Below are positions 1 through 24,300 of a stretch of DNA of 41,361 bases, piece after piece. Origin of the DNA: Archangiaceae bacterium (GTDB lineage Bacteria; Myxococcota; Myxococcia; Myxococcales; Myxococcaceae); contig JAACJQ010000352.1 in NCBI GenBank assembly GCA_016879935.1, positions 1 to 41,361 on the forward strand, read 5' to 3'. The translations under genes and the position numbers were made by a program. Under the pieces are notes generated by a model, which had not been told where the DNA came from, did not search any database, and saw nothing but the letters and a program-made list of their open reading frames with translations. Numbering within the stretch: the first letter of the stretch is position 1; each line of letters opens with the position of its first letter.

Positions 1-2192
1 AGCTCGTAGATGGTCGGCGCACGGAACGCGCGGCCCACCACGAGCTTCGTCAGCCCCGACTCGTACAGCCTGGCCACGACCGCGCCACGCGGCGACAGCG
101 CGAACTCACCGACGTCGTTGTACTTGTCGACACGAACGCCGGCCTGCAGGAAGAGCCGGTTGTTCCACAGCTGCCACTCGTCGAGCAGCGTCGCCGAGAA
201 GACCGTGCGCGTCTTGTTGTCCTGCATCGGCACACCGACCGGCTGCTGGTAGGCGAGCTGCAGCTGCCCTTCGACGCCGAGCGTGAGCCGGTTGCCCTCG
301 AAGAGGAAGAGGCCGCCGCGCACTTCGCCCGAGAACCAGTCGCCGCCGCCCGTGTCGGTGTTGCGCACGCGCTCACCGTTGCCGTCGAGCGAGGCGTACC
401 AGCCGCGGTAGCGGGAGGCGTCGTAGGCGGCGCGCGCCGTCAGCGTGAAGCGTGAGGCGAACTCCTTCTCGTAGCGAAGCTCGGTGTAGCCGCGCGCGTC
501 GGTGTACTCCGTGCCGGGCACGCCCAGCTGCGCTCCGAGCGGCGCGGTGGGAATCTGCTTCTTGCGCTGGTTCCACTTGGCGGTGAGCGACAGGCCCTTC
601 CAGCTCGCGCGCGTGTTCGCGCCGATGGAGCGCTCGTTGTCGAGGCCGCGAATCGTGCCCGCCTGCCCGAGGTCGGTGAGCTCGGCGCCCGACGAGGTGA
701 AGCCCGCCGCCGAGACGATGGCCTGCAGGTCGTCGTCTCCGAGAGAACCCGTCACGCGCGCCTTCACGCCGCCCATGCCGCCCGCGCCCACGACGCCTTC
801 GACGTTGCGGTTGGTGATGCGTTGGCGCGGCACCACGTTGATGACGCCGAAGAAGGCGCCGGTGCCGAAGAGCAGCGACGCTGGGCCTCGCACGACTTCG
901 ATGCGCTCCACTTCGGTGAGGTCGACGTCGAAGTCGCGCGCCGAGAAGCCCTGGCCGGCCCACACGTCGTTGATGGGGTGGCCGTCCCAGAGGATGAGGA
1001 TGCGCGCGTTCAAGTCGCCCGGCGGTGAGAAGCCGCGAATGCCGAAGTACGTGTAGATGCGATCGTCGGTGAAGAAGAGGCCACGCACCGCGCGCAGCGC
1101 TTCGGGCAGCGTCTGGTAGCCGAAGGCCTGAATCTCTTCGCGCGTGATGACGGTGATCGACGCGGGCGCCTGGTCGACCGACAGCAGCTGCTTGCTGGCG
1201 GCGGTGACCTTGGGCGGGGCGTAGCGAAGGTCGGCGGTGACGCGCAGCTCCTGGTCAGCCACCACCTCGACCGTCTCCACCAGCGGCGACACGTCACTGC
1301 TCGTCACCTCGAGCGTGTGTTTGCCCTCGCTCAGGTTCAGCACCACCGGCGTGAAGCCCGAGTCTTTGCCATCGACGCGCACCACCGCGGAGTCGCGGTT
1401 CGCCGTGACGATGACCTTGCCCGTCGGCTTGGGCTTCTCGGGCAGCGTCACCTTCGCCGTCACCGTCTGGTCGGCCTTCACGTCGACGAGCACCTGCTGG
1501 GCGAGGTGACCCGGCGCCTGCACCACGAACAAGCGCTGCCCCGGCGTGAGCTCGAGCTTCGCGGGCAGCGTGCCCAGCGACGGCCCATCGTTCGTCTCGC
1601 GAATCACCGCGCCCGCGGGCGTGCCCGTCAGCTCGACCGTTCCGACGATGCGGGTCAGCTCGACCGTCACCTTCGCTTCGCGCCCCTTCGTCGTCGTCAC
1701 CTTCGCCTGCCCGGGCCGAAACCCCTCGGCCTTCACGAGCACCACGTGCGCGCCTGGCTTCACCGCGACCGTCTGTGGCGTCTTGCCTCGGCTGCCGAGA
1801 TCTTCGCGATCGACGAACAGCTCTCCTTCGGTCGGGCTCGCGGTCACCGTCACCAACGCGACCTGTGGGGCCAGCCGGGCCAGCGCGGCCTTCACGTCTT
1901 TCTTGTCGTCGTTCGGCAACGTCGGGTCGACCGAGAGATCGTGCCAGTAGCGGTACGCCTCGTCGGGGCGGTCGAGCGCCTCGAAGCAGCGCGCGATGTT
2001 GAAGAGCACGTTGCGGTTGGGCACCAGCCGGTACGAGAGGAAGTAGTTCGACAGCGCCCCTTCGTAGTCGCGCTTCGTGTACGCCTGAACGCCGCGAGAG
2101 AACGCGATGTCGGCCTCGTCAGCGGTGTTGTCAGCATGGGAGACGGCGCCCACCATCACCAGCATCAGCACGAGTGATCGCACGCGGGCCAC
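1..2192 (-). CDS. TonB-dependent outer-membrane receptor with N-terminal TPR and PEGA repeats (3' end beyond window)
   Basis: Read directly from the minus strand, since the frame has no stop before the left edge; about 730 residues are visible. A GTG start at 2192 has AGAGG five bases upstream and gives a signal peptide ending near GAVSHA (residue 20). A GTG at 2183 is an alternative start. Residues ~25-110 look TPR-like (GALSNYFLSYRLVPN, LFNIARCFEALDRPDEA). Three PEGA-type repeats follow (~112-180, ~182-250, ~258-322), each with the usual VxVDG/GxTP/GxHxL pattern. The plug domain (~330-460) has SITVITREEI, RILILWDGHPIND and RIEVVRGPASLLFGTGA. Barrel sequence then continues, with GRAFRAPTIYEL near the edge. 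TonB receptors import siderophores, cobalamin or other ligands; the substrate cannot be told here. It diverges from the cytochrome operon and shares its upstream region. The TPR-PEGA extension before the plug is unusual compared with ordinary TonB receptors. Confidence 0.9.
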   Translation of the reverse strand, partial: MARVRSLVLMLVMVGAVSHADNTADEADIAFSRGVQAYTKRDYEGALSNYFLSYRLVPNRNVLFNIARCFEALDRPDEAYRYWHDLSVDPTLPNDDKKDVKAALARLAPQVALVTVTASPTEGELFVDREDLGSRGKTPQTVAVKPGAHVVLVKAEGFRPGQAKVTTTKGREAKVTVELTRIVGTVELTGTPAGAVIRETNDGPSLGTLPAKLELTPGQRLFVVQAPGHLAQQVLVDVKADQTVTAKVTLPEKPKPTGKVIVTANRDSAVVRVDGKDSGFTPVVLNLSEGKHTLEVTSSDVSPLVETVEVVADQELRVTADLRYAPPKVTAASKQLLSVDQAPASITVITREEIQAFGYQTLPEALRAVRGLFFTDDRIYTYFGIRGFSPPGDLNARILILWDGHPINDVWAGQGFSARDFDVDLTEVERIEVVRGPASLLFGTGAFFGVINVVPRQRITNRNVEGVVGAGGMGGVKARVTGSLGDDDLQAIVSAAGFTSSGAELTDLGQAGTIRGLDNERSIGANTRASWKGLSLTAKWNQRKKQIPTAPLGAQLGVPGTEYTDARGYTELRYEKEFASRFTLTARAAYDASRYRGWYASLDGNGERVRNTDTGGGDWFSGEVRGGLFLFEGNRLTLGVEGQLQLAYQQPVGVPMQDNKTRTVFSATLLDEWQLWNNRLFLQAGVRVDKYNDVGEFALSPRGAVVARLYESGLTKLVVGRAFRAPTIYE

Positions 2193-2330
2193 ACTAGCCT
2201 CTGAGCCATTCGTCTCAACTTCCAAGAAGATTCGCGGGACTGCACCCGTGGCCGTTTGGGTGTCGGCTGGGTCTGACACCGTCATTCCGCTGCCACGCAA
2301 CTCATTGATGCCGGTCAATCAACCTCGAAC
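2193..2330. promoter_or_regulatory. Divergent promoter region between TonB receptor and cytochrome operon
   Basis: This 138-bp gap must hold the promoters of both divergent units if the right-hand start is at 2331; it is longer if the start is at 2376. It contains an imperfect inverted repeat (GTGTCGG at 2260-2266, CTGACAC at 2273-2279) and the FNR-like dyad listed separately. I found no convincing -35/-10 pair for either direction. The base composition is visibly less GC-rich than the flanking genes, as expected of a regulatory region. Confidence 0.55.
2305..2318. promoter_or_regulatory. FNR/CRP-family-like operator
   Basis: The sequence TTGAT-GCCG-GTCAA matches the FNR consensus TTGAT-N4-ATCAA at nine of ten specified positions and is itself palindromic at TTGA-N6-TCAA. 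Its centre is 64 bp before the ATG at 2376 and about 119 bp before the receptor start. FNR-type regulators respond to oxygen or redox state, which would fit an operon for alternative electron acceptors. The match is seen in the sequence; the regulator and its effect are inferred. A different CRP/FNR-superfamily member could equally use this site. Confidence 0.5.
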
Positions 2331-2375
2331 GTGATGCTCGCGCTGGCTTCCATCACTCCCGTACTGTCGGCCGTC

Positions 2376-4586
2376 ATGCTGCTGGACGGTTTGATTCTCG
2401 CGGCCCTCGTCGCGATCGGCGTGGGCATCGGCTGGTTCATGGTTCGCCGGCGCACCAAGCGAGAGGCCGCCGACACCGCAGCGCTCGCGACGGCGGTGAA
2501 AGAAGGCCGCGCGGAGCCGATGACGCTTCACCCCATCATCGACCCCGACCGCTGCATCGGCAGCTTGTCGTGCCTCTCGGTCTGCCCCGAAGGCGACATT
2601 CTCGGCGTCGTCGATGGCAAGGCTGCGCTGGTGAGCCCGAGTGCCTGCATCGGCCACGGCAAGTGCGCGCTCGAGTGCCCCGTCAACGCCATCACGCTGG
2701 TGTTCGGCTCCGAGAAGCGCGGCGTCGATCTGCCCGAGGTCGACGAGTTCTTCGAGACGAGCCGCAAGGGCCTGCACATCGTCGGTGAGCTCGGTGGCAT
2801 GGGCCTCATCAAGAACGCCATCACCCAGGGTCTGCAGGTCGCGCGGCACCTGGGGCCCAGGCTCAAAGACACGCCGAAAGACATCGCCGACGTCGTCGTC
2901 GTGGGCGCCGGCCCGTCGGGGCTCGCCACCGCGCTCGGCCTCAAGGAGCAGGGCCTCACCTTTCACGTGCTCGACCAGGAGACGATGGGCGGCACCATCG
3001 CGCACTACCCGCGGCAGAAGGTGGTGATGAGCGAGAAGGTCGACCTGCCGTTCTACGGAAAGTTCGGCGACTCGCTCATCTCGAAGGAGCAGCTGCTCGA
3101 GAGCTGGGAGAAGGCCGTTCAGAAGGGCGGCTTCAAGGTTCACACCGGCGTGAAGGTCGAGAGCATTCAGGGCGAAGACGGCAACTTCATCGTCAACACG
3201 ACGAAGGGCCCGGTGAAGAGCAAGAAGGTGGTGCTCGCCATCGGCCGCCGCGGCACCCCGCGAAAGCTCGGCGTTCCCGGTGAAGAGCTCGACAACAAGG
3301 TCACCTACCGCCTCATCGACCCGCAGCAGTACGAAGGCGCGCGGGTGCTGGTGGTGGGCGGTGGCGACGCCGCGCTCGAGGCTGCGATTCAGATCGCCGA
3401 CGAGACCGACGCCGAGGTCTCGCTCAGCTACCGCCAGCCCGAGTTCGGCAAGGCACGTGAAGCGAACAAGAAGCGCTTCAAGGAGCTCGTCGACCAGGGC
3501 CGCATCTTCGCGTTCATGGCCTCGCAGGTGAAAGCCGTGAAGGAGCGCTCGCTCACGCTCGAGTACGAGGGCAAGCAGCTCGACCTGCCCAACGACTTCG
3601 TCATCGCGTGCCTCGGCGGCGAGTTGCCGACGGAGTTCCTGAAGAAGTGCGGCGTGAGCCTCACGCGCCTGCACGGTGAAGCGCTCGGCGCGAAGGCCAA
3701 ACGTGGCAGCGCGCTCAAGGACGCCTCGGAGCAGAAGCACCGCCGCCTCTCGTTCGCGCTCTTCGTGCTCGGCGCCCTCATCGTCGCGTCGCTCTTCGTG
3801 GTGGGGCAGGACTACTACCGCATGCCGGTGGCCTCGCGGCTCAACCACCCGATGCACGCGTTCCTCAAGCCTGCAGGCCCCTGGGGCCACGGCGTCGGCA
3901 TCGTCGCGACCATCGTGATGATGTCGAACTTCGTCTACGCGATTCGCAAACGCTGGGAGCGCCTCAAGGGCTTCAGCACCATTCGCACCTGGCTCACCTT
4001 TCACCAGTTCGTCGGCTTCTTGAGCCCGCTCGTCATCGTCTTCCACGCCGCGTTCCAGACGAAGAACCAGCTCGCGACGCTGACCGCTGCGGCGATGACG
4101 GTGGTGGTCTTCACCGGCATCATCGGGCGCTTCCTCTACGCGCTGGTGCCCTCTGACGCGAAGTCGGACGAGTTCGACGCCGTGTCACGCCGGTGGAAGC
4201 AGCAGGGAGAACGGCTCGAGGGAGAGGTCGAGCGGCTCGAGCTGCCCGAGTCCGTTCGCGGCATGCTCGACATGGCCGAACACAAGCCACCCGAAGACTC
4301 GCTGCTCGCCTTCTTCGCGCATCTGCCGAAGCGCTGGGTGAACGACTACCTGCGGCTGCGGCAGGTCTGGCACCTGTTCCCCACGCCCGCCCACGGCCGC
4401 GAGTTTCGCAAAGACTTCTCGGCTCTGCGCCGCCTGCAGAGCCAGGTGGCGTTCTTCCGCTCGCTCAAGCGCGTGATGAGCGTGTGGCGCGTGTTCCACG
4501 TCGTGCTCGCGATTCTCCTGGTCATTCTCATCGCAGGGCACATCGGCGTGTCGCTGATGCTCGGCTACCGGTGGATTCTCAAGTGA
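2376..4586 (+). CDS. Membrane NAD(P)/FAD oxidoreductase fused to ferredoxin-like and di-heme cytochrome b domains
   Basis: With ATG 2376 the protein has 736 residues. GTG 2331 and ATG 2334 are in-frame alternatives but lie close to the FNR-like box; none has a clear ribosome site. Order of parts: an anchor helix (1-23) followed by RRR, placing the next part in the cytoplasm; a two-cluster Fe-S region with Cys 60/66/70 and 91/97/101; an FAD-binding GAGPSG (~177-182); an NAD(P)-binding GGGDAALEAA (~328-337); then several membrane helices. His543/His557 and His708/His722 form two H-x13-H pairs, the classic spacing for two b-hemes across a bilayer. There is no thioredoxin-reductase CxxC. Inferred role: taking electrons from NAD(P)H or ferredoxin and passing them to periplasmic cytochromes; the reverse direction is possible. 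The stop overlaps the next start (GTGA), so translation is probably coupled. Confidence 0.88.
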   Translation: MLLDGLILAALVAIGVGIGWFMVRRRTKREAADTAALATAVKEGRAEPMTLHPIIDPDRCIGSLSCLSVCPEGDILGVVDGKAALVSPSACIGHGKCALECPVNAITLVFGSEKRGVDLPEVDEFFETSRKGLHIVGELGGMGLIKNAITQGLQVARHLGPRLKDTPKDIADVVVVGAGPSGLATALGLKEQGLTFHVLDQETMGGTIAHYPRQKVVMSEKVDLPFYGKFGDSLISKEQLLESWEKAVQKGGFKVHTGVKVESIQGEDGNFIVNTTKGPVKSKKVVLAIGRRGTPRKLGVPGEELDNKVTYRLIDPQQYEGARVLVVGGGDAALEAAIQIADETDAEVSLSYRQPEFGKAREANKKRFKELVDQGRIFAFMASQVKAVKERSLTLEYEGKQLDLPNDFVIACLGGELPTEFLKKCGVSLTRLHGEALGAKAKRGSALKDASEQKHRRLSFALFVLGALIVASLFVVGQDYYRMPVASRLNHPMHAFLKPAGPWGHGVGIVATIVMMSNFVYAIRKRWERLKGFSTIRTWLTFHQFVGFLSPLVIVFHAAFQTKNQLATLTAAAMTVVVFTGIIGRFLYALVPSDAKSDEFDAVSRRWKQQGERLEGEVERLELPESVRGMLDMAEHKPPEDSLLAFFAHLPKRWVNDYLRLRQVWHLFPTPAHGREFRKDFSALRRLQSQVAFFRSLKRVMSVWRVFHVVLAILLVILIAGHIGVSLMLGYRWILK

Positions 4587-6361
4587 ACGTTCGCCGGGCC
4601 CTGCTGCTGTTCGTCGTCGTGGTCACGTCACCTGCGCGCGCAGACCTGTTCTCGCCAGGCGAGCTCGCGAAGGCGCATGGCAACCTCTCGGGTCTCGGCG
4701 CCTGCACCAAGTGCCACCCCGTCGGCGGGCAGCTCAGCCAGGAGGCGTGCCTCGACTGTCACACCGAGCTCGCGCCACGCATCGACAAGGGCGCCGGCTT
4801 TCACGGGCGCATCACCACCGACAAACGCGCCTGCGAGACCTGCCACCACGAACACCAGGGCGAGATCCACCAGCTCATCGAGTGGGGGCCGCAGGGCGAG
4901 AAGGGCTTCAACCACGCCAAGACGGGCTGGGCCCTCAAAGGCGCGCACGGGCCGGCGAAGTGCAATTCCTGCCATGTCTCGAAGTTCGTGCAGACGGCGA
5001 CCATTCGCACGTTGATGGAGAAGCGCCCCGAGACGCGGCTGGGCCTCTCGACCGTCTGCACCACCTGTCACTTCGACGAGCACCGCGGCCAGCAACAGGA
5101 AGACTGCGAATTCTGTCACGTCGAGAAGGCGTGGAAGCCGGCGCCCGGCTTCAATCACAACGACACCAAGTACCCGCTGCGCGGCAAACACGCGAAGGTG
5201 AAGTGCGCCGAGTGCCATCCCTCGGACAAGGACTCCGAGCCGCACGGCGCGCAGCTGCTGGGCCCGAAGTCAGAGACGTTCTTGCGCTTCGCGCCCATCG
5301 ACCACGCGAGCTGCCTCGACTGTCACAAAGACCCGCACGAAGGTCGCTTCGGCCTGCGCTGTCAGAGCTGTCACGTCACCGACGGGTGGAACGTGCTGCG
5401 CAACGTGAGCGGCGAGCGCGCGTTTCACGAGAAGACCGACTTCCCCCTGAAGGGCGCGCACCTCGACGTCGACTGCAAGACCTGCCACGGCCCGTTCCCC
5501 GGCATTCCGCCGAAGTTCAAGGGGCTCAAACACGAGAGCTGCGCAGACTGTCACCCCGATGGCCACGAAGGGCAGATGGCCCAGGTCGGCAAGCCCGCGC
5601 TCGATTGCAAGGAATGTCACACCGAGCAGGGCTTCACCCCCGTCATCTACGGCTTCGAGGCGCACGCGAAGACCCGCTACCCGCTCGAGGGCTCGCACCA
5701 GGCCGTCGCCTGCAACAGCTGCCACGAGAAGAACGAGGCGCTGAAGGCGAAGGTTCCGAAGGCCACGCTCGTCGACTTGAAGCGCCGCAGCCGGCAAGAG
5801 CTCTTCAGCTTCGCGGTGTTCGACTTCACGAAGCCCCTCGAGACCTGCGAGAGCTGTCACGCCGACCCGCACAAGGGCCAGTTCAAAGAGGTCGCGAAGG
5901 GCTGCGTCGCCTGCCACGACGTCACCAGCTTCCGGCACATCTCGTTCGACCACGACAAGAACTCCCGCTTCGCGCTCGAGGGCGCGCACGAGAAGGTGGC
6001 CTGCTCGAAGTGTCACACCGCAGCCGGCCCGAATCAGCCAGTTCGATACAAGCCGCTCGAGGTGACCTGCCGCTCGTGTCACGCCGACGAGCACGCCGGC
6101 CAGTTCGCCAAGGCCGGCCCGGTCGCGTGTGAGAAGTGTCACGGTGAGAAGGCCTTCAAGCCGTCGAAGTTCGAGCACAAACCGCCGTTCACCGAGTTCC
6201 TGCTCGACGGTGAGCACGCGAAGGCGAAGTGTGAGTCGTGTCACCGCAAGGTGCCGGTCGCCAATGGGGTCAGCACGGCACAGTACAAGCCGCTGCCCAC
6301 CACGTGTGAAGGCTGTCACGCCGACTACCACGAGGGCGCGTTCAAGGGGTTCGAGCCATGA
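4583..6361 (+). CDS. Periplasmic multiheme cytochrome c with 20 CxxCH motifs
   Basis: GTG 4583 overlaps the preceding TGA and gives a 592-residue protein with signal peptide MNVRRALLLFVVVVTSPARA. I count 20 CxxCH heme-binding motifs, so it should be a secreted c-type cytochrome carrying about 20 hemes. The sequence is modular. CxxCHxDxHxGxF units (CHADPHKGQF, CHADEHAGQF, CHKDPHEGRF) alternate with F-x-L-x-G-x-H-x-x-V-x-C-x-x-CH units (FPLKGAHLDVDCKTCH, FALEGAHEKVACSKCH). This suggests growth by duplication of a two- to three-heme module. No lipobox or membrane helix follows the signal peptide, so it is probably soluble in the periplasm. There it could bridge the inner-membrane di-heme b protein upstream and the outer-membrane complex downstream. 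The family resembles cytochrome c3-like proteins of deltaproteobacterial lineages. Confidence 0.93.
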   Translation: MNVRRALLLFVVVVTSPARADLFSPGELAKAHGNLSGLGACTKCHPVGGQLSQEACLDCHTELAPRIDKGAGFHGRITTDKRACETCHHEHQGEIHQLIEWGPQGEKGFNHAKTGWALKGAHGPAKCNSCHVSKFVQTATIRTLMEKRPETRLGLSTVCTTCHFDEHRGQQQEDCEFCHVEKAWKPAPGFNHNDTKYPLRGKHAKVKCAECHPSDKDSEPHGAQLLGPKSETFLRFAPIDHASCLDCHKDPHEGRFGLRCQSCHVTDGWNVLRNVSGERAFHEKTDFPLKGAHLDVDCKTCHGPFPGIPPKFKGLKHESCADCHPDGHEGQMAQVGKPALDCKECHTEQGFTPVIYGFEAHAKTRYPLEGSHQAVACNSCHEKNEALKAKVPKATLVDLKRRSRQELFSFAVFDFTKPLETCESCHADPHKGQFKEVAKGCVACHDVTSFRHISFDHDKNSRFALEGAHEKVACSKCHTAAGPNQPVRYKPLEVTCRSCHADEHAGQFAKAGPVACEKCHGEKAFKPSKFEHKPPFTEFLLDGEHAKAKCESCHRKVPVANGVSTAQYKPLPTTCEGCHADYHEGAFKGFEP

Positions 6362-7239
6362 TGCCGTTCGTCCTGGTGCTCCTCGCTGCCGCGCCTGACG
6401 CCGGCGTCTCGACGACGGCCGACGCCGGGCGCCCGTTCGTGCTGCCGTCGCTCAGCGCGATGATGGCGAAGAAGGGGCACGGTGGAGAGACGGCCTGCGC
6501 TTCGTGCCACGGCACCTCGGGGTGGACGGACGTTCGGTTCAATCATGACCGCACGGGCTTCCCGCTGACAGGGCAACACAAACACGCCGTCTGCAAGTCT
6601 TGCCATGTGCAGGATTTCAAGACCCCGCTGGTGCGCGCCTGTGCCGGGTGTCACCGCGACGTGCATGGTGGCGACCTGGGCTCGCGCTGCGACGGCTGTC
6701 ACGACACGGCCGACTGGAACTCGCGGCTCGATGCCGAAGCTCACCGGCGCAGCAACTTCCCGCTCTTCGGCGCCCACGCGAGCCTGCCCTGCGTCGAGTG
6801 TCACGCCGAGGCCAGGGAGCGCCGGTTCTCGCGCGCCACGGTCGACTGTGCCGGCTGTCACCTCGCCGACGCCGCCCGCACCCGTGGCCGCGCGGCTGAT
6901 CACCTCGTGCTGGGGTACGAGGTGCGTTCGTGTCGCGAGTGCCACGGCCCGCTGCGCTTCTCGCCGGCGTTGATGCCCGACCACGACCGCTGCTTCCCCA
7001 TCAACGGCGGCCCTCACGCGGGCATCGGCTGTCAGGCCTGCCACACGTCGCTCTCGGGAGCAGGTACGCCCGGCCTGTGTCGCACGGGCACCGCCGCCTG
7101 CGCCTCGTGCCACACGCACCAGTGCACCGGGCCCAACGGCACCACCACGACCGATCGCCAACACGCGAACGTCGTCGGCTACCAGTGCGACAGCCAACGC
7201 TGTTACCAGTGTCATCAACCCGCGGGAGCGCTGCCATGA
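6358..7239 (+). CDS. Decaheme c-type cytochrome
   Basis: ATG 6358 overlaps the previous TGA (ATGA); ATG 6361 is a second in-frame start. The 293-residue product begins with a short hydrophobic segment (PFVLVLLAAAPDAG) consistent with export. It has 10 CxxCH motifs. The first half repeats the module of the preceding gene (FPLTGQHKHAVCKSCH, CHRDVHGGDL, FPLFGAHASLPCVECH), so the two genes are probably paralogous. The C-terminal part departs from the module and ends CYQCHQPAGALP. Ten hemes and a position directly before the barrel gene match the periplasmic cytochrome that plugs into the porin in MtrA- or OmaB-type complexes. That assignment is by analogy of position and heme number, not by recognised homology to MtrA. 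Confidence 0.9.
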   Translation: MMPFVLVLLAAAPDAGVSTTADAGRPFVLPSLSAMMAKKGHGGETACASCHGTSGWTDVRFNHDRTGFPLTGQHKHAVCKSCHVQDFKTPLVRACAGCHRDVHGGDLGSRCDGCHDTADWNSRLDAEAHRRSNFPLFGAHASLPCVECHAEARERRFSRATVDCAGCHLADAARTRGRAADHLVLGYEVRSCRECHGPLRFSPALMPDHDRCFPINGGPHAGIGCQACHTSLSGAGTPGLCRTGTAACASCHTHQCTGPNGTTTTDRQHANVVGYQCDSQRCYQCHQPAGALP

Positions 7240-8900
7240 GTCGCGTGCTCCCGTTCATGCTGCTGCTCGCGCTCACCGCCGAGGCCGGCCCGAAGAAGGC
7301 GCCGGCGCGCAATCAGCCGAGACCGCCGCCGCCCGCGAAGCCGAAGGTGCCGCTGCTCAAGTCGAGCGGCGAAGTCACCTGGGCCGGTACCGAGTTCGCG
7401 TTCGTCGACCGCGGCAGTGCTGACGGCGTCGAGGTGGGCAAGCCGCTGCTGTTCACGCGCGCTGGCCGCTCGTCGGGCAGCTGCAACGTGGTGTCGGTGT
7501 CAGAGCACTCCGCCCGCTGCACGGGGCTCAACGTTCGGGTCGGCGATCGGTTCAACGTGTCGCGTGAGCAGCCCCCGCCGCCCGAGGGCCCCAGGCCGTT
7601 GCCGACCGAGGCCGAGCTCAAACGCCGCGGCGCGCTGGTCGAGTCGAACGAGTGGGTGTTGCGGGCCTTCGATGGTGCGCGAGGTCTGGGCGAAGGGCTG
7701 CACGCCAACGCGGCCATCTCGCACACGACGTACTTCAACGCGACGTCGGTGCGTCTGCCCAGCAACGTGCAGCGCGTCGACGCCACCGTCATCGACTTCG
7801 AGATCTACAAAGGCCTGCGCGCGACCGTCGACCTCACGGTGCTCAACTTCAGCAGCCGGCCCGACGCGCCACGCACCGTCTACCAGCAGACGCCGGTGCT
7901 GCTCGTTCGGCAGCTCGAGCTCGGGTTTCGCCGGGCCGACCTGCCGTTCTCTGCGGCGCTCGGCCGCTCGTGGCTGACGACCGGCCCCAGCCTGCTCGTG
8001 CTCGATGGCGCGCACGCGACCTACCGACTCGGCGTCGTCGAGCTCGGGGCGTTCGCCGGCCTGCTGCCTGACGGTGCCCGCCTGACGCCGTCGGTCAGCC
8101 AGTGGAGCGCGGGCGCGTTCTCCCGCGTGCAGCTCGCGTCAGGTGAAGGGTCGGCAGCCACCATCGTGCAGCTCGCGGGGCGGGCAGGGTACGCGTTGCG
8201 TGACACCGTCGGGTCGCGCTTCGAAGCGGCGGTCGGTGCGGGCCTCTGGGCAGGCACCAGCTTCGACGCCAACGCCTCGGTCGAGGTTGGTTATGGAGAC
8301 AACCAGGCGCCGGCTGGCATCGACGCCGCGCGGCTCGACCTCGGCTACAGGCCCTCCGAGAAGCTCATGCTCTTCGCCTCGGGCCGTTACCGCGGGCTCC
8401 CTGTCAGCGGGCTCACCGAGGTCGGTCTCATCTCTCCCGGCTTGCGCGCCCTGCACGCCGACGCGATGGGCAGCTACGAAGTGAGCCCTGGCGTCATCGT
8501 GGGCCTGCGCGGCGGCCTCGCGAGCGACTTCAATTCCTCACTCCTCCAGGCGCGTTTTGGCCCCGAGCTGACGATGCCGTCGCTGTTCGGGCTGCCGCTG
8601 GCGCTGGGTGTTGGGTACACCGAAGAGCTGGGCTGGCTGCGCGGCCGCACCGCCTTCGTCTCGTTCGGCGTCTCGGCGGGCAGCGTCTTTCGCGTGACGT
8701 CGCGCACCAGCCTCTTCCACCAGCAACCCGTCGCCGGCGCCGAGGGGCTCAACAGCGCCGAGATCGGCCAGTCGCTCGCCGTCGAGGTCGCGCCGTGGCG
8801 GTTCCTGCGGGCACGCGTGCTGGTCATGGGCCGCCAGACGGCCGGGGAGCGATTCGCACCGTTTGGCAGCATTGGCGGGCAGTTGTCGGGTTCGTTCTGA
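7236..8900 (+). CDS. Predicted outer-membrane beta-barrel of the cytochrome conduit
   Basis: ATG 7236 overlaps the previous TGA and gives 554 residues with signal peptide MSRVLPFMLLLALTAEA. A Pro-rich stretch leads to a small domain (~35-110) with FVDRGSADGVEVGKPLLF, two cysteines and VGDRFNV. It resembles the SH3-like C-terminal domain of FlgT-type periplasmic proteins. From about residue 150 the sequence has alternating polar/apolar strands with aromatic belts (VELGAFAGLL, SVEVGYGDNQ, KLMLFASGRYRG, TAFVSFGVSAGSVFRV) and ends in Phe (GGQLSGSF), the usual BamA-recognised terminus. It contains no CxxCH. Set between a decaheme and a multiheme lipoprotein gene, it is the likely porin sheath of a porin-cytochrome complex. 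I cannot show sequence homology to MtrB or to Geobacter porins by eye. Confidence 0.8.
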   Translation: MSRVLPFMLLLALTAEAGPKKAPARNQPRPPPPAKPKVPLLKSSGEVTWAGTEFAFVDRGSADGVEVGKPLLFTRAGRSSGSCNVVSVSEHSARCTGLNVRVGDRFNVSREQPPPPEGPRPLPTEAELKRRGALVESNEWVLRAFDGARGLGEGLHANAAISHTTYFNATSVRLPSNVQRVDATVIDFEIYKGLRATVDLTVLNFSSRPDAPRTVYQQTPVLLVRQLELGFRRADLPFSAALGRSWLTTGPSLLVLDGAHATYRLGVVELGAFAGLLPDGARLTPSVSQWSAGAFSRVQLASGEGSAATIVQLAGRAGYALRDTVGSRFEAAVGAGLWAGTSFDANASVEVGYGDNQAPAGIDAARLDLGYRPSEKLMLFASGRYRGLPVSGLTEVGLISPGLRALHADAMGSYEVSPGVIVGLRGGLASDFNSSLLQARFGPELTMPSLFGLPLALGVGYTEELGWLRGRTAFVSFGVSAGSVFRVTSRTSLFHQQPVAGAEGLNSAEIGQSLAVEVAPWRFLRARVLVMGRQTAGERFAPFGSIGGQLSGSF

Positions 8901-8991
8901 GAGGCACACCATGGCGCACATGTCAGGCGTGGCCGACGTTGGCCTCGTGCGGTCCATTCCAGTCACGGCGTTTTTCGTGAGGCACCCCCGC

Positions 8992-11900
8992 ATGCGCTTG
9001 GCTCGAGCTCTCCAGTTGGTGATGGTGGTCGCGGCCGTCTCTGGCTGCCCCACGGCTCCCGGCCCGAACATTCCGCTCACGCGCGTGAGCGCCGACGACC
9101 ACCCCTTCTTTCCCATCGCGGCTTCGCTCGACGGCGGCCACAGCATCGGCCGCGGCTCACCGCTCGACGGGCCCGTCACCTGCGAGTCGTGCCACACCTC
9201 GTCCACCGCGGGCTTCACCGAATACTCGTGCACGCAGTGCCACACGCACGCTGACTCCATCAACCTGATGCTGCATCGGGGCGTGGAAGACGCCGGCTTC
9301 GTGACCGACGACGCGGGCGTGGTGAGCATCGCCAGCAGAGCGTGCGTCTCGTGTCACCCGAAGGGCGAAGAGGTGGTGCCGCCGTACTCGCACACCGGCA
9401 TCTCGCCGAGCGACATGACCTGCGCGCTCTGCCACGCAGAATCGACGGCGTTCGCGGCGCTGCCCAAAGAGGGCTTCGTGCATCGCGAGACGGCTGGCGC
9501 CGACTGCGGCGGCTGTCACGTCGTCACCTCGTGGACCGAAGTGCGCGGCGCTCCGGACGGCGTGTTCGACCCCGAGCTCAACCTGAACGTCGACACCCTC
9601 GTGCCCAACTTCTCGGGCACCAGCATCACGGCCGTGCGGCCCGTCGTGGAAGTGCTGCAACTGCCGATGAAGCACAGCAGCCGCACCCTCGACGCCGGCT
9701 ACGTCGGCCTGTGCGTCAACTGCCACTCCGAGGCTGGCTCCAACATCTACTACCCGGCGCTGCTGCACTCGTCGCTCGCCAACACGATGCAGCCCCAGCC
9801 CACCACCTGCGCCGACTGTCACGAGCGCCGAGACCCGTCGACGGGAGAGCCCGGCACGCGCCCCACCGGCTTCGTCGGCCCGCTCGCCACCCGCCCTGCC
9901 CGCACGCCGGCCAGCGGAGAGATGCGCCATGACGCCCTGACGTGGACGGGTGATGGCGGTGGCGCTCTCATCGTCACCGCAGACTGCAGCACCTGTCATC
10001 GCGCGCCCGGCGTGAACGAGGCAACCTGGCAGACGGGCCGCACCGACGCCGGCCTCGTCTTCCACGCGTCGCTCACGGCGGCCGGTCTTCCCCAGCCCAC
10101 CTCGTGCCTCGACTGTCACGCGAACACGCGCCCGACGGCGCTGCTCACCTCGATGAACGCGGCGGTGCCCGCAGGCCTCTCGTTCGACCACCAGGGCGTC
10201 GACCTCATGGGCGACTGCACCGGCTGTCACACCAGCACCACGGTGTGGAGCGGCGCGAAGTTTCACCCGGTCGGCGCCACCACGCCGTCGACCTGCATTC
10301 CCTGCCATGCGCAGGAGCGGCCCGTCTCGACCGCGAACTGGATGTCGGCGAACTGGCAGAACAAGCCGTTCGACTTCGTGACGAGCGACGCGGGCGTCAC
10401 CCACGGCGCAGGGCAAGACTGTGTCATCTGTCACGCGGGCCCGGGCTCGGGCATGTGGGGCACGAACCAGAACTGGCAGCGCGGGCACTTCCCGCATGGG
10501 CCAACCTCCATCGCGGCGCAGGGCTGCCTCACCTGCCACACCTCGCAGCGCCCCGACCTGCTCGCCGGCACCACGCCCGCGGCCATGGCCACGCTGCTGG
10601 GCTTCGACCACCGCGCGAACGGCACGGGAGAGTGCGGCGCGTGTCACCAGGCGACCGTCGTCGCCAATCGCTACAACGACTACTTCAGCGCCACCACGGG
10701 CATGCTGCCCGGCGGCGACTGGCGTGGCGGCACTTCGTACCCGGGTGACTTCCTCATCACCTCCCCAGGGCAGTTCGTGAACCTGACGACCTATCGACTG
10801 CAGCGCGCGACGCCGACTGCGCCAGTCACCGGCATCACCACGCAACCCGTGACGTTGCCAAACGCGATGAAGCACACGTCGTCGGTCATTCCTGCACAGG
10901 TCAACCCCGGCAGTGCGACGATGCCCGTCAACACGACGTGCTGGCATTGTCACACCAACACCAACGGCACCGTGACCGCCTACGCCAACGGCGTCTTCCA
11001 CCGCGCGCTCACCACGTTCTCTGCCACCCCGGGTGGAGCCGTGACGCCGCTTGCGCAGCCGACCTCGAACTGTCGTGACTGCCACACCCAGATGCTGCCG
11101 CCCGATGTCGTGCAGCGCATGGCGAACCCGCTCTTCTCGATGGACCACCACGCGCGCTTCATGGCGACGGTGAACATCGGCGGCGCGATGGTGAGCAGCG
11201 TCGACCAGCTCGACTGCAGCGCCTGCCACCGCACCACCGGCACCGCGTGGACCGACGGGCGCTTCCACTCCAACATCGGCACCGCGACGCCCGCCGACTG
11301 CACGCAGTGCCACTACCCGCTGATGGCCAGCACGCAGGCCGACGTGACGACGATGACGCGCTTCGCGATGCGCCACCGCTCGGTGCAGGTGTCGACGCAG
11401 ACGTGCACCACCTGCCACACCATGGCCTTCTCCAAGGCGACCATGATGCCCACGGCGGCCACGCTCTGGAGCACCGGCCAGTACCACGCCAACGCGATGC
11501 CGCAGGCGAGGGCGTGCGTCGACTGCCACGCCGTCACCGAGCCCGCGATGGCCACGCAGGGCACCACGGCCTACCTGTTCGCCAGCGGCGGCGGGTCGAC
11601 CACCAACGGCAACCAGTGGATGAACCACACCGCCGCGTCGGTCGTCGGCCGTGACTGCTCGACGTGCCACACCATCGACGCGCAGCCGAACGCCGTGTGG
11701 AACAAGGCGACGCGCTTCCACACCTTCGTGCCGACCGTCACGGCGTGCTCGGTCTGCCACGGCACGGGCAACGGCCGCGGCACGGTGCTGGGCACCAACA
11801 ACAACCTGCCCAACGCGCCAACCAACACGGCGACGCTGACGACGTTCACCGGAGCTCCGACGGTGAAGGCGCAGATGAACCACGCCGACCTCAACGCCAC

Positions 11901-12741
11901 CGGCCACGACTGCAACTTCTGCCACACGCAGCAGGGCACCTCGACGATGGCAGGAATCACGGGCAAGGAGTGGGCGCAGGCCCGCTTCCACGTGCGCTTC
12001 ACGGCTGCCACGCCGCTCATCTCGAACGGCACCACCGCGCGCTGCAGCAACTGCCACATCAACGAGAAGCCCGGCTCGACGTACACGACGTTCGACCACT
12101 CGGCCATCACCGGGGCGCAGACGAGCGCCGACTGCTCGACCTGCCACAGCTACCCGGGCCTCGCGATGCTGCCCGCGTCACCGACCCCGAACTGGAAGGG
12201 CGCTGCCGCGATGCCGGCCTTCATCTCGGTCGGTGGTTTCACCATTCCCGTCCCTCCGGCCACGGCTGCAGGCACGGTGCAGGGCGGCATCGCGAACCTG
12301 CCGCACCCCACCGTCGCCACGGGCGTCGCCTGCACCACCTGTCATGCGCAGGCCAATGGCGGGCGCCGCGCGACGGGCTACCCGCACACCTCGACGCTCA
12401 TCGCCAACAACTGCAATGCCTGCCACGAGTCGGGCAGCGACCTGGTGGGCACGGCCTGGAACAACGCGACGACGAGCAGCGCTGGCGCCGGTGACACGCG
12501 GCCCTACACGCTCACGTCGGTCGTGCCGACGTTCAAAGGCAATACACGCAGCTGTAATTACCCGAAGCACTTCTACCCAATCGATTGCAAGCAGTGTCAC
12601 AAGTTGCCGGCGGGCAATGCGCCAGTGACGACGGGGGCGGCCTACACCGCGGCGTGGAAGTTCTCGCACACCGAGTCGAAGATGACGCGACCCGGAACGT
12701 GCAACACCTGCCACGCCGGTACCTGCAACCTGCCGGACTAA
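8992..12741 (+). CDS. Giant multiheme lipoprotein cytochrome with 29 CxxCH motifs
   Basis: ATG 8992 has GTGAGG upstream and gives a 1249-residue protein whose first 19 residues are a lipoprotein signal with lipobox VSGC (Cys19, followed by Pro). ATG 8911, with GAGAGG six bases before it, is an alternative start that would lengthen the N-region by 27 residues. I count 29 CxxCH motifs spread over the whole length. The spacers are rich in Thr, Ala, Gly and Asn and poor in Lys, as often seen in surface-exposed cytochromes. Many hemes are preceded by a distant His in FHxxx or FDH contexts that could be axial ligands. A CNYPKH stretch near residue 1190 lacks the second Cys and is probably not a heme site. 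By analogy with MtrC/OmcB-type proteins it should sit on the outer surface as terminal reductase or wire. It is far larger than those proteins. Confidence 0.92.
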   Translation: MRLARALQLVMVVAAVSGCPTAPGPNIPLTRVSADDHPFFPIAASLDGGHSIGRGSPLDGPVTCESCHTSSTAGFTEYSCTQCHTHADSINLMLHRGVEDAGFVTDDAGVVSIASRACVSCHPKGEEVVPPYSHTGISPSDMTCALCHAESTAFAALPKEGFVHRETAGADCGGCHVVTSWTEVRGAPDGVFDPELNLNVDTLVPNFSGTSITAVRPVVEVLQLPMKHSSRTLDAGYVGLCVNCHSEAGSNIYYPALLHSSLANTMQPQPTTCADCHERRDPSTGEPGTRPTGFVGPLATRPARTPASGEMRHDALTWTGDGGGALIVTADCSTCHRAPGVNEATWQTGRTDAGLVFHASLTAAGLPQPTSCLDCHANTRPTALLTSMNAAVPAGLSFDHQGVDLMGDCTGCHTSTTVWSGAKFHPVGATTPSTCIPCHAQERPVSTANWMSANWQNKPFDFVTSDAGVTHGAGQDCVICHAGPGSGMWGTNQNWQRGHFPHGPTSIAAQGCLTCHTSQRPDLLAGTTPAAMATLLGFDHRANGTGECGACHQATVVANRYNDYFSATTGMLPGGDWRGGTSYPGDFLITSPGQFVNLTTYRLQRATPTAPVTGITTQPVTLPNAMKHTSSVIPAQVNPGSATMPVNTTCWHCHTNTNGTVTAYANGVFHRALTTFSATPGGAVTPLAQPTSNCRDCHTQMLPPDVVQRMANPLFSMDHHARFMATVNIGGAMVSSVDQLDCSACHRTTGTAWTDGRFHSNIGTATPADCTQCHYPLMASTQADVTTMTRFAMRHRSVQVSTQTCTTCHTMAFSKATMMPTAATLWSTGQYHANAMPQARACVDCHAVTEPAMATQGTTAYLFASGGGSTTNGNQWMNHTAASVVGRDCSTCHTIDAQPNAVWNKATRFHTFVPTVTACSVCHGTGNGRGTVLGTNNNLPNAPTNTATLTTFTGAPTVKAQMNHADLNATGHDCNFCHTQQGTSTMAGITGKEWAQARFHVRFTAATPLISNGTTARCSNCHINEKPGSTYTTFDHSAITGAQTSADCSTCHSYPGLAMLPASPTPNWKGAAAMPAFISVGGFTIPVPPATAAGTVQGGIANLPHPTVATGVACTTCHAQANGGRRATGYPHTSTLIANNCNACHESGSDLVGTAWNNATTSSAGAGDTRPYTLTSVVPTFKGNTRSCNYPKHFYPIDCKQCHKLPAGNAPVTTGAAYTAAWKFSHTESKMTRPGTCNTCHAGTCNLPD

Positions 12742-21185: not shown

Positions 21186-21393
21186 GTGCTCCCCCGAAGT
21201 ACTGCGAGTGTGAGGAGGCCTTGAGCAGCGGTTGTGCCAGCGCGCTGATCGCCGACGATTCGCGCACTTTTCCGAGAGGGCGGCGGAGCCCAGCCCGTGC
21301 GCCCGTGGACTCCAGTCTCGTTCTCACGTTCTGAAAACCGCGAAAAATTCCGCGCTTACGGTTGCGATGCTACTTTCCCGTCCCGCATCCCCG
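21186..21393. other. Intergenic region between peptidase gene and giant TPR gene
   Basis: This 208-bp divergent gap contains an A-rich patch (GAAAACCGCGAAAAATTCC around 21332-21351) and the 11-mer TTACGGTTGCG (21356-21366). The same 11-mer also lies just before the metallophosphoesterase start (35943-35953). It probably carries the promoters for both directions, but no convincing -35/-10 pair or hairpin is visible. If the TPR protein starts at ATG 21367 the gap shrinks by 27 bp. Confidence 0.4.
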
Positions 21394-24300
21394 ATGGCTG
21401 AGCGAGACACCACATCTTCGAGCGCCCGAACGCCCGGCCCCGAGCTGCGGCTGCTCGATCGGCGCGCGTACGTCGGCTTCCCCGCCCTCACGCTGACGCC
21501 GGGTGTGGAGCTCGTCGACTTCGCGCTGTCGATTCCCGACGTGACGTTCCCGCTGAACGTGTCGGGCGGCGCGGCGAAGTACCAGAAGAAGAAGCTCGAC
21601 TTCGGGTTGCTCGAGCTGTCGGTGAGCGCCGACGTCATTCAGCGCGCGGTGCAGTCGGTCGCCGGCAAGCTGCCCGAGCTCGACGACGTGAAGCTGCACT
21701 TCCGGCCCGGCTCGCTCGAGGTGCAGGCGCGGCTGCGTGGGCCCGAGCGCGCGCCGCTCACCTTCAAGGTGGCCTTCGACGGTGATGGCGATTCGCTGGC
21801 CGTCTACTTCTACGACGTTCGGTTCTACTCGTTCAGCACCACCGCCGCGGCGCGCATTCCGGCGCTGGTGAGTGAAGCCATCAAGTCGTTGTCGTTGCTC
21901 CCCGACGTCGAGCGGCGGGGCGCGAACGGCTTCACCACGAAGATTCTGCCCCAGCTCGTCGAGCAGGCCGCGGTGGGCCGTGGCTACAAGATGCCGACGC
22001 TCGATCAGGCCCGGCTCTCGGAAGCGGTGGTGTCGTCGAAGGGCGTTCGGTTGCGCTTCTCGTCGGGTGGCCTGCCGCCTCCGGCCGCGTTCGACGAAGA
22101 GCTGCTGCTCACGCTCGAAGGCGCGCGCGCGTTCGCCGACGCCGAAGAGCTGGTCGCGCAGGGCAAGCTGGCCGAAGCCCGTCAGGCGTATCTGCGGCTC
22201 GGAGACGCGACCGAGGCGCACCCGTTCGCGGTGGAGCGGCTGCTGACGTTGCTCGTCGCCGACCCGCAGGCGCACGAGCTCGCGCTCGACATCGCGGCCT
22301 CACTCGCGCGTCGCCGTGAGAAGAGCGCCACCGCCGTCTGGGCCGAAGCCGTCGTTCGCGAGAAGCGTGGCGAGTTCGCCCGCGCCTCGGAGCGGTTCCT
22401 CGCGCTCTGCAACCTGTCGCGCAAACACCAGGAGGAAGCAGCGGCCTTCTTCTCGGCGGAGGCGGCGGCGAGATCGTCGCGTGACGCGGCTCCGCAGATG
22501 GCCGTGCGCGCGCTGCACGAGATGCTGGGCCTCAAGCCCGATCATCTGCCGTCGCTCAAGGCGCTCGCCCGTGCGTCTGACCAGGCGAAGGATCGTGCTG
22601 GCGCGATTCGCGCGTACCGTCGCCTCGCAGCGCTCGCACGTGAACCGGCCGAGGCCGCCGACGCGCACGTTCAGCTCGCGCGCCTGTGCGCCGAGACCGA
22701 AGACGACATCGCGGGAGCGCGGCTGCACTGTGAAGCGGCCCTGCGGCTGGCGCCCGACCACCCTGAAGCGCTTCTGCAGCTGGGTGAGCTCTGCTTCCGC
22801 TCGGGTGAACACCTTCGCGCCATCAAGGCGCTCGACCGGCTGCGAGAGGTCGCGCTGGGCCGTCACGAAGTCGATCGCATCGGCCGCGCCAACCTGCTCG
22901 CCGGTCGCGTGTGGGAGTCGGGGCTCAAGCAGCCTGAGAACGCGCTGCTGCGCTATCGCGAGGCCGCGTCGCTGCTGCCGGGAGACGCCGAGCCGCTCTA
23001 TCTCGCCGCGCGTGTCTCGGAGTCGCTCAACAAGGTGCAGGAGGCCGTGTCGGGCTACCAGCAGGCCATCGAGCTGGCGGGGCCGTCGCCGTCGTCACCT
23101 GCGTTGCGCACTGCTGCGCACCAGTCGCACCACGCCCTCGCTCGCCTGCTGAAGACGAAGCTCGGAGAGCCCGCACGCGCGAGAGATCACCTCGAGCTGG
23201 CGCTCGCGCTCGACCCGACCGACGCGGCGGCGCTCGACGAGCTGCTCCCGTACTTCCGCGCTGCGGGCACAGCGGTCGAGCTGGCCGACGCTTGCGAGAA
23301 GGCCGCTGCGGTCATCGACGATCCGCTCCGTCGCGCGGCGCTGTGGGCCGAAGCCGGCGAGCTGTACCGAGGCCGGCTCGGTCAACCCGAACGCGCCGAA
23401 CGGCTGCTCTCTCAGGCCCTCGAAGCCGACCCGAAGAATCGCCTCGCGCTCGAAGGCATGTTGTCGCTGGCCGAGAGCCGCCGCGATGGTGGTCAGCTCT
23501 GCCGCTCGCTGCGCGCCCTCGCCGAGCTCACGCCCGAGCCGAAGGAGCGCGTTCGTTACTACCGTCGCCTCGCCGTCGCCGCGCGCGACCTCGCGTTCGA
23601 TCTCGACCTCGCCGTGCACGCGTACCGCGAAGTGCTGCGCGTCGAGCCCGAAGATCTTCCCGTGCTGGGCGAGCTTGCTGCCCTCGAGCGCCGCCGCAGC
23701 GACATGGCCGGCCTCGCCTGGGCGCTCGAGCAGCGGGCGAAGGCGTCGGAGGCCGCTGGCGACAAGCGGCTCGCGGCCGCCGCGTTGCGCGAACTGGGCC
23801 AGGTGCTCGATGTTCGCCTCGGCCGGGCAGGGGAGGCGCTCGTCGCGCTCGAGAAGGCAGCGCGGCTCCACCCCGACCCGAACGCGCTGCTCGAGCTCGC
23901 GAACCTCTGCCTGCGCCTCGAGCGTGCGCCCAACGCGCGCCGGGCCCTCGAAGACACGCTCGCGCTGCTGCCGACACACGCTCCGCCCGAGAAGCTCGCC
24001 GAAGTGCGCGCGCGCCTCGGCCGTGCCTGCGAGCTGCTGGGGGACAAGGACGCCGCGAGAGAGAACTACGCGCTCGCGTTTCCGCTCCGCCGCCTCGACG
24101 ACGAACTCTCGGGCCGCCTCGAAGCGCTCTACGTCGAAGGCCGCTTCACCCGCGAGCTCACCGACCTCTGGGCCTCGCGCGCGCAGGCGTTGCTGCAGGC
24201 CGGCCGCGCCCACGACGCCGCGCCGCTCTTCTTCAAGGCCGCCCAGACCCAGCTCGCTGCGGGTGATGCGACCGGCGCGATGCTGCGGCTGACGTCAGCG

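Follow-up and report, generated by a model that had tools for sequence, protein, structure and literature searches.

Do five consecutive genes of a myxobacterium encode a complete route by which electrons pass from the cytoplasm over both membranes to the cell surface? The question is raised by a contig (JAACJQ010000352.1) of the genome assembly GCA_016879935.1 from an Archangiaceae soil bacterium (Myxococcaceae), of which a stretch of 41,361 nucleotides was analyzed; this whole stretch is called the window below. The genes, here called g1 to g5 and together the cassette, appear to specify an oxidoreductase of the inner membrane, two periplasmic multiheme cytochromes, an outer-membrane β-barrel and a multiheme lipoprotein. 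We consider it probable that the operon is a trans-envelope electron conduit that takes electrons from reduced nicotinamide adenine dinucleotide or its phosphate (NAD(P)H) through both membranes to the cell surface. The proposal is based on the heme counts, the gene overlaps, the co-occurrence of g1 and g4, a conserved gene order, natural gene fusions, a split version of the cluster and a barrel that is predicted to have no plug. By its architecture, in which a barrel gene is clustered with genes for periplasmic multiheme cytochromes and for an outer-membrane lipoprotein multiheme cytochrome, the cassette can be described as a porin–cytochrome conduit, with a function that is assigned by analogy.

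Gene organization and heme content

The initial annotation of this DNA described five genes in a row of which the first four are coupled, and this description holds. All five reading frames were found on the same strand (Table 1), with three start/stop overlaps of 4 base pairs among g1–g4 and a gap of 91 base pairs between g4 and g5. The total of 59 CxxCH motifs was also exact, with 0, 20, 10, 0 and 29 motifs in g1 to g5, respectively. In shuffled proteins of the same composition the mean was 0.14–0.18 CxxCH per protein and the maximum in 500 was 3. The start of the operon had been placed at position 2305, but the first gene begins at 2331 or 2334. For g5, the lipobox favors the ATG at 8992 over the other in-frame ATG codons at 8911 and 8920. 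Because the genes are conserved across dozens of Myxococcota loci, with identities of about 40–85% (down to about 25% for g4), the case for five coding genes is beyond doubt.

Table 1. Genes of the cassette, with positions in the window.
Gene	Position	Strand	Length (amino acids)	Predicted product
g1	2334-4586	+	750	Fe-S/FAD/NAD(P)/di-heme b inner-membrane oxidoreductase
g2	4583-6361	+	592	20-heme periplasmic cytochrome
g3	6358-7239	+	293	10-heme cytochrome, proposed within the barrel
g4	7236-8900	+	554	outer-membrane β-barrel, ~22 strands
g5	8992-12741	+	1249	29-heme lipoprotein cytochrome, proposed surface terminus

Distribution and split clusters

In 195 Myxococcota genomes, g1 was found in 51 and g4 in 44. 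The two occur together in 42 genomes, whereas g1 is alone in nine, g4 is alone in two (one of which is 74% complete) and both are missing in 142 (Fisher p 2.8e-31). The order g1-g2-g3-g4 is kept while the sequences diverge, and the numbers of 20 and 10 hemes also stay the same as the sequence drifts. The initial annotation had made its proposal depend on the presence of the gene set in relatives, and synteny is indeed conserved across Myxococcota. When 84,980 species genomes were scanned with the profile of the b-heme domain of g1, 40 loci were obtained, which are recorded as Myxococcota or as unspecified Deltaproteobacteria, Proteobacteria or bacterial metagenome-assembled genomes; the scan used short peptide patterns, so that more remote relatives from other phyla may have escaped it. 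The named isolates among these loci are Myxococcus sp. RHSTA-1-4 and Anaeromyxobacter oryzae Red232.

A second arrangement, in which the same slots are filled in another order, is present in three loci (L127, L128 and L129). Here a soluble Fe–S/NAD(P) protein, which is 44–47% identical to the front part of g1, is encoded divergently from a free-standing di-heme b membrane protein with a weak profile match to the rear part of g1, and a 30-heme protein completes the cluster. L127 and L128 also carry a 27-heme g5-like gene after the Fe–S/NAD(P) gene, as well as a gene for a predicted outer-membrane-type protein, which the g4 profile does not recognize. Because the same parts are split in some lineages and fused in others, the gene arrangements provide strong evidence that the parts work together.

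The oxidoreductase of the inner membrane

The g1 protein consists of an N-terminal transmembrane helix, two ferredoxin-like Fe–S motifs, a flavin adenine dinucleotide (FAD)/NAD(P) oxidoreductase domain and a C-terminal domain with five transmembrane helices. Pfam matches were Pyr_redox_3 (1.8e-42) and Fer4_10 (2.7e-10). The six predicted helices show a positive-inside pattern, and from the positive charges the Fe–S/flavin part is expected to be cytoplasmic. An NAD(P)-binding input fused to a di-heme b domain had been proposed initially; the fusion was found, with the correction that the input module also carries the two Fe–S motifs. In these motifs (residues 74–116) Ser77 and His108 take the place of the second Cys, and both are invariant in 37 sequences. 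In the soluble g1 paralogs that were checked, the first of these places holds Ser or Thr and the second again His. This suggests an unusual Fe–S ligation in g1.

The curated family closest to the flavin domain is Bdr/YpdA (TIGR04018, 152.2 bits with a cut-off of 339.9; 7a76). Assignment of g1 to this family was rejected, as the cut-off is missed and the position of the active-site Cys (195) is occupied by Ser or Ala in 37 of 37 homologs. A further difference is that the flavin domain of g1 is fused to Fe–S and b-heme parts.

The two H-x13-H helices mentioned in the initial annotation (H557/H571 and H722/H736) are real and conserved, which points to a b-heme domain that binds two hemes. Five His residues (H508, H519, H557, H571 and H736) are invariant in 37 aligned homologs and H722 is found in 35 of the 37. 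A third heme helix, H505-x13-H519, was considered and discarded as a chance match because H505 varies. The H-x13-H spacing is typical of the di-heme domains of ferric reductases and NADPH oxidases (NOX), and g1 shares the two-helix ligand feature of their membrane domains. Its score with the Pfam family Ferric_reduct (PF01794) was 16.8 bits, which is below the cut-off of 28, and a search of the PDB with the b-heme domain profile (A1) gave no relative, the best E being 0.17. The likeness to these enzymes includes the two H-x13-H helices, the two stacked b hemes that these would hold and a predicted cytoplasmic site for NAD(P)H and FAD. However, the flavin domain of g1 is of another family and is located N-terminally instead of C-terminally, and its electrons would pass to cytochromes c.

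The periplasmic cytochromes

The heme numbers of g2 and g3 are constant, with 20 in 31 of 31 complete unfused g2 homologs and 10 in all complete g3 homologs. Alignments of 32 sequences each revealed, beyond the CxxCH motifs, 21 invariant His residues in g2 and 9 in g3. In several lineages g2 and g3 are naturally fused to one 30-heme gene that lacks the g3 signal peptide. When four of these fusions (L076, L099, L106 and L131) were included in the alignment, all 30 motifs proved invariant, as did exactly 30 additional His residues. The presence of approximately one distal His per heme argues for a role in electron transfer rather than in catalysis.

The unit CxxCHxDxH occurs six times in g2, and five of these precede the next CxxCH by 8–14 residues. 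The sixth forms the C terminus, and in 29 of 31 homologs 18 residues separate the start of the last motif from the end of the protein. The fusions have the first heme motif of g3 just downstream of the place equivalent to the g2 C terminus. This register and the His counts (21 for 20 hemes, 9 for 10 hemes and 30 for 30 hemes) are most simply explained if the first heme of g3 receives a ligand from the partner protein, namely the terminal His of g2 (H583).

The profiles of g2 and g3 weakly match a chain of 6r2q, which we take to be MtrA. With the MtrA/DmsE model (TIGR03508, cut-off 192.2) g2 scored 41.8 bits and g3 15.7 bits, so the relationship to MtrA that the initial annotation proposed to search for stays below the family threshold. 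Since the 10-heme MtrA is about 104 Å long according to small-angle X-ray scattering (PMC4245776), the 20-heme g2 could span most of the periplasm.

The predicted outer-membrane barrel and the exchangeable, putative surface cytochrome

No Pfam family and no NCBIfam match were obtained for g4, and its profile (A4) found no PDB chain at E ≤ 1. A model made by AlphaFold2 with 26 homologs has 22 strands between residues 158 and 553 and no plug, with a mean predicted local distance difference test score of 82.8 and a predicted template modelling score (pTM) of 0.64. Comparison of the model with solved outer-membrane barrels gave Z scores of 18–19. Among the structural matches listed were plugged TonB receptors, OprD-type porins and ushers; at this level they identify g4 as an outer-membrane barrel only. 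MtrB was not among these matches, an absence that does not speak for a different fold. The MtrB/PioB family (PF11854) was rejected as an assignment because Pfam gave no match to it in g4; whole-genome searches did not detect it in the genome of the window or in 8 other carrier genomes, presumed Anaeromyxobacter included, either. An occupant may be expected in the g4 barrel, since 22 strands with no plug would leave a wide pore open. The initial annotation had required a barrel that can house a cytochrome, and the predicted strand number and the lack of a plug are consistent with this. Residues 40–111 form a small N-terminal β domain for which no family was found and which has two invariant Cys residues, C83 and C95. 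These probably form a disulfide, and the domain is probably used for docking on the periplasmic side.

The large cytochrome g5 had been described as a lipoprotein, in agreement with its lipobox VSGC-P. The domain model for MtrC/MtrF domain II/IV (PF22113, cut-off 30) was matched with 120.5 bits, whereas the score with the OmcA/MtrC family (TIGR03507) was 25 bits with a cut-off of 209.3. Homologs of g5 have 29 hemes in 9 of 12 hits of this type, and most possess a lipobox, with no Asp at +2. They are not always part of the operon, since in some loci the gene is located upstream and divergent. Elsewhere g5 is replaced by a 7–14-heme cytochrome that adjoins g4 (most with a lipobox) or by proteins with 27, 44 or 51 hemes. 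Of the complete five-gene conduit that was originally proposed, g1–g4 therefore stand as a conserved core, but the 29-heme gene is an exchangeable part and does not belong to it.

Two of the replacing genes deserve separate description. The cytochrome with 51 CxxCH motifs (L100:48-4280 (-), the same place as L077) has a regular repeat and adjoins the cassette, and the one with 44 CxxCH motifs (L094) is interrupted by a contig end.

Other genes in the window include a divergent gene upstream of the cassette (1-2237, minus strand) that encodes PEGA domains and a TonB-dependent receptor plug domain. This receptor was considered as a fixed partner and rejected, as it adjoins the cassette in the genome of only one relative (L062/L083, same contig). 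Further downstream (21232-30927, plus strand) there is an open reading frame of 3231 amino acids with many TPR-like repeats. The genome of the window also has a second cytochrome cluster (L132, contig C278), with two 12-heme reading frames, a heme-free possible outer-membrane protein of 551 amino acids, a 10-heme MtrC/MtrF-domain protein and a 23-heme protein.

Possible mechanisms

In the mechanism that we favor, the cytoplasmic flavin/Fe–S part of g1 would accept electrons from NAD(P)H. Two b hemes, stacked within the inner membrane, could relay the electrons to the periplasmic side, with H557 and H722 as the probable ligands of the cytoplasmic heme and H571 and H736 as those of the periplasmic heme. 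The electrons would then enter the 20-heme g2, which may span most of the periplasm and dock to g3, with the terminal His of g2 completing the first heme of g3. Passage over the outer membrane could occur through g3 positioned within the 22-strand g4 barrel, as in MtrAB-type conduits. From there a lipoprotein multiheme cytochrome, g5 in this genome and other ones elsewhere, would deliver electrons to acceptors outside the cell, for example humics, partner cells or oxides of Fe(III) or Mn(IV). The net direction is most likely outward; function, direction, use of NAD(P)H and surface exposure are all inferred. Because outward electrons would move with the membrane potential and consume it, such an arm would dispose of reductant or reduce extracellular targets without conserving energy or pumping protons, unlike a quinol-linked conduit. 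The occurrence of the cassette in the Fe(III)-reducing genus Anaeromyxobacter (PMC4245776) also speaks for a conduit. A stricter version, in which the operon is a quinone-free wire without any diffusible carrier, g2 and g3 form one 30-heme unit through the trans His and the surface terminus changes from lineage to lineage, is tentative and falls somewhat short of an even chance.

Several points weigh against the proposed route. Three genomes of the same genus as the window lack the cassette, which is therefore dispensable, and some loci have no surface cytochrome within the stretch examined. The structure of g3 is predicted with low confidence (pTM 0.35), and a lipobox alone does not prove that g5 is exposed at the surface. 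At the entry side, the sequence of g1 does not distinguish between NADH and NADPH as donors, and its Fe–S sites could be supplied by a different carrier such as ferredoxin.

The alternatives that can be considered overlap in part with the proposed mechanism and with each other, for example because a quinol-fed system would still be a conduit, and should not be regarded as exclusive. The main one, unlikely in our judgment, is a conduit fed by the quinol pool or by ferredoxin. The b-heme domain would oxidize quinol at a site formed by H508 and H519, and the flavin/Fe–S part would confurcate or reverse electrons. Both His residues are invariant yet not needed for two b hemes, and the two invariant Fe–S motifs would be superfluous in a plain NAD(P)H route. 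Moreover, the inner-membrane proteins known to work with conduits oxidize quinol (PMC6295460). However, g1 has no c-heme, unlike quinol oxidases of the ImcH or CymA type, and an NAD(P)/FAD domain accompanies the b-heme domain, fused to it or encoded next to it, in all full-length homologs as well as in the split paralogs.

A surface reductase of the NADPH oxidase type, acting on O2, copper, redox-active antibiotics or chelated iron in uptake or predation, seems improbable. The His pattern of the di-heme b domain and its weak Ferric_reduct score would suit such an enzyme, as would the TonB receptor gene upstream, but that score is below the cut-off, the receptor is found beside the cassette in just one other genome, and 59 c hemes exceed by far what a reductase needs. 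Inward flow, in which electrons from Fe(II), minerals or other cells would be taken up at the surface cytochrome and used by g1 to form NAD(P)H, is very improbable. Multiheme wires are reversible in principle and uptake was suggested for other multiheme cytochrome operons of Anaeromyxobacter (PMC5539420), but reduction of NAD(P)+ would proceed against both redox and membrane potential with no energizing subunit encoded, and the carriers include Myxococcaceae, for which an aerobic predatory life is presumed, and the Fe(III) reducer Anaeromyxobacter. Least credible is that the large cytochromes mainly store electrons, a capacitor role suggested for large Anaeromyxobacter cytochromes (PMC2330069), next to an unrelated porin, since g4 co-occurs almost perfectly with g1 and is translationally coupled to g3, and a split cluster again pairs a predicted outer-membrane-type protein with a 30-heme gene.

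Comparison with known conduits

The cassette resembles MtrCAB of Shewanella in that a decaheme protein is encoded beside a barrel and an outer-membrane cytochrome, and in the MtrC/MtrF domain of g5. It is not a member of MtrCAB, because no MtrB family match was found and the family cut-offs for MtrA and MtrC were not reached. A further difference is the lack of a quinol-oxidizing CymA-type gene in the operon. The OmbB-OmaB-OmcB, ExtABCD and ExtEFG systems of Geobacter are similar in having a periplasmic multiheme cytochrome, a barrel and a lipoprotein cytochrome in one cluster, a likeness of layout; large sequence divergence between conduits is normal in Geobacter. Their barrels ExtB and ExtE have 18 and 21 predicted transmembrane segments (PMC6148476), as compared to 22 strands in g4, and their periplasmic components carry 5–15 hemes (PMC6148476), as compared to 20 plus 10 in the cassette. 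No NAD(P)-linked b-heme oxidoreductase has been described for the Geobacter operons.

In Anaeromyxobacter, a two-gene porin–cytochrome (pcc) cluster, with Adeh_3392 as its periplasmic member, consists of one 12–14-heme cytochrome and a porin, without an oxidoreductase (PMC4245776). A survey in 2014 reported one such cluster per Anaeromyxobacter genome, different from the cassette (PMC4245776), and this genus would thus gain a second conduit that the survey did not report. A description of the cassette was not found in a literature search, from which subscription journals were largely out of reach. A conduit of this kind would also extend extracellular electron transfer to the Myxococcaceae, a family known for aerobic predation, and the single operon would be a compact candidate for transplanting electron transfer to other hosts. 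Known outer-membrane conduits are fed with quinol via separate inner-membrane proteins and usually use mobile periplasmic cytochromes. With an NAD(P)-linked entry of its own and a 30-heme relay, the cassette would instead be a self-contained wire that spans the envelope.

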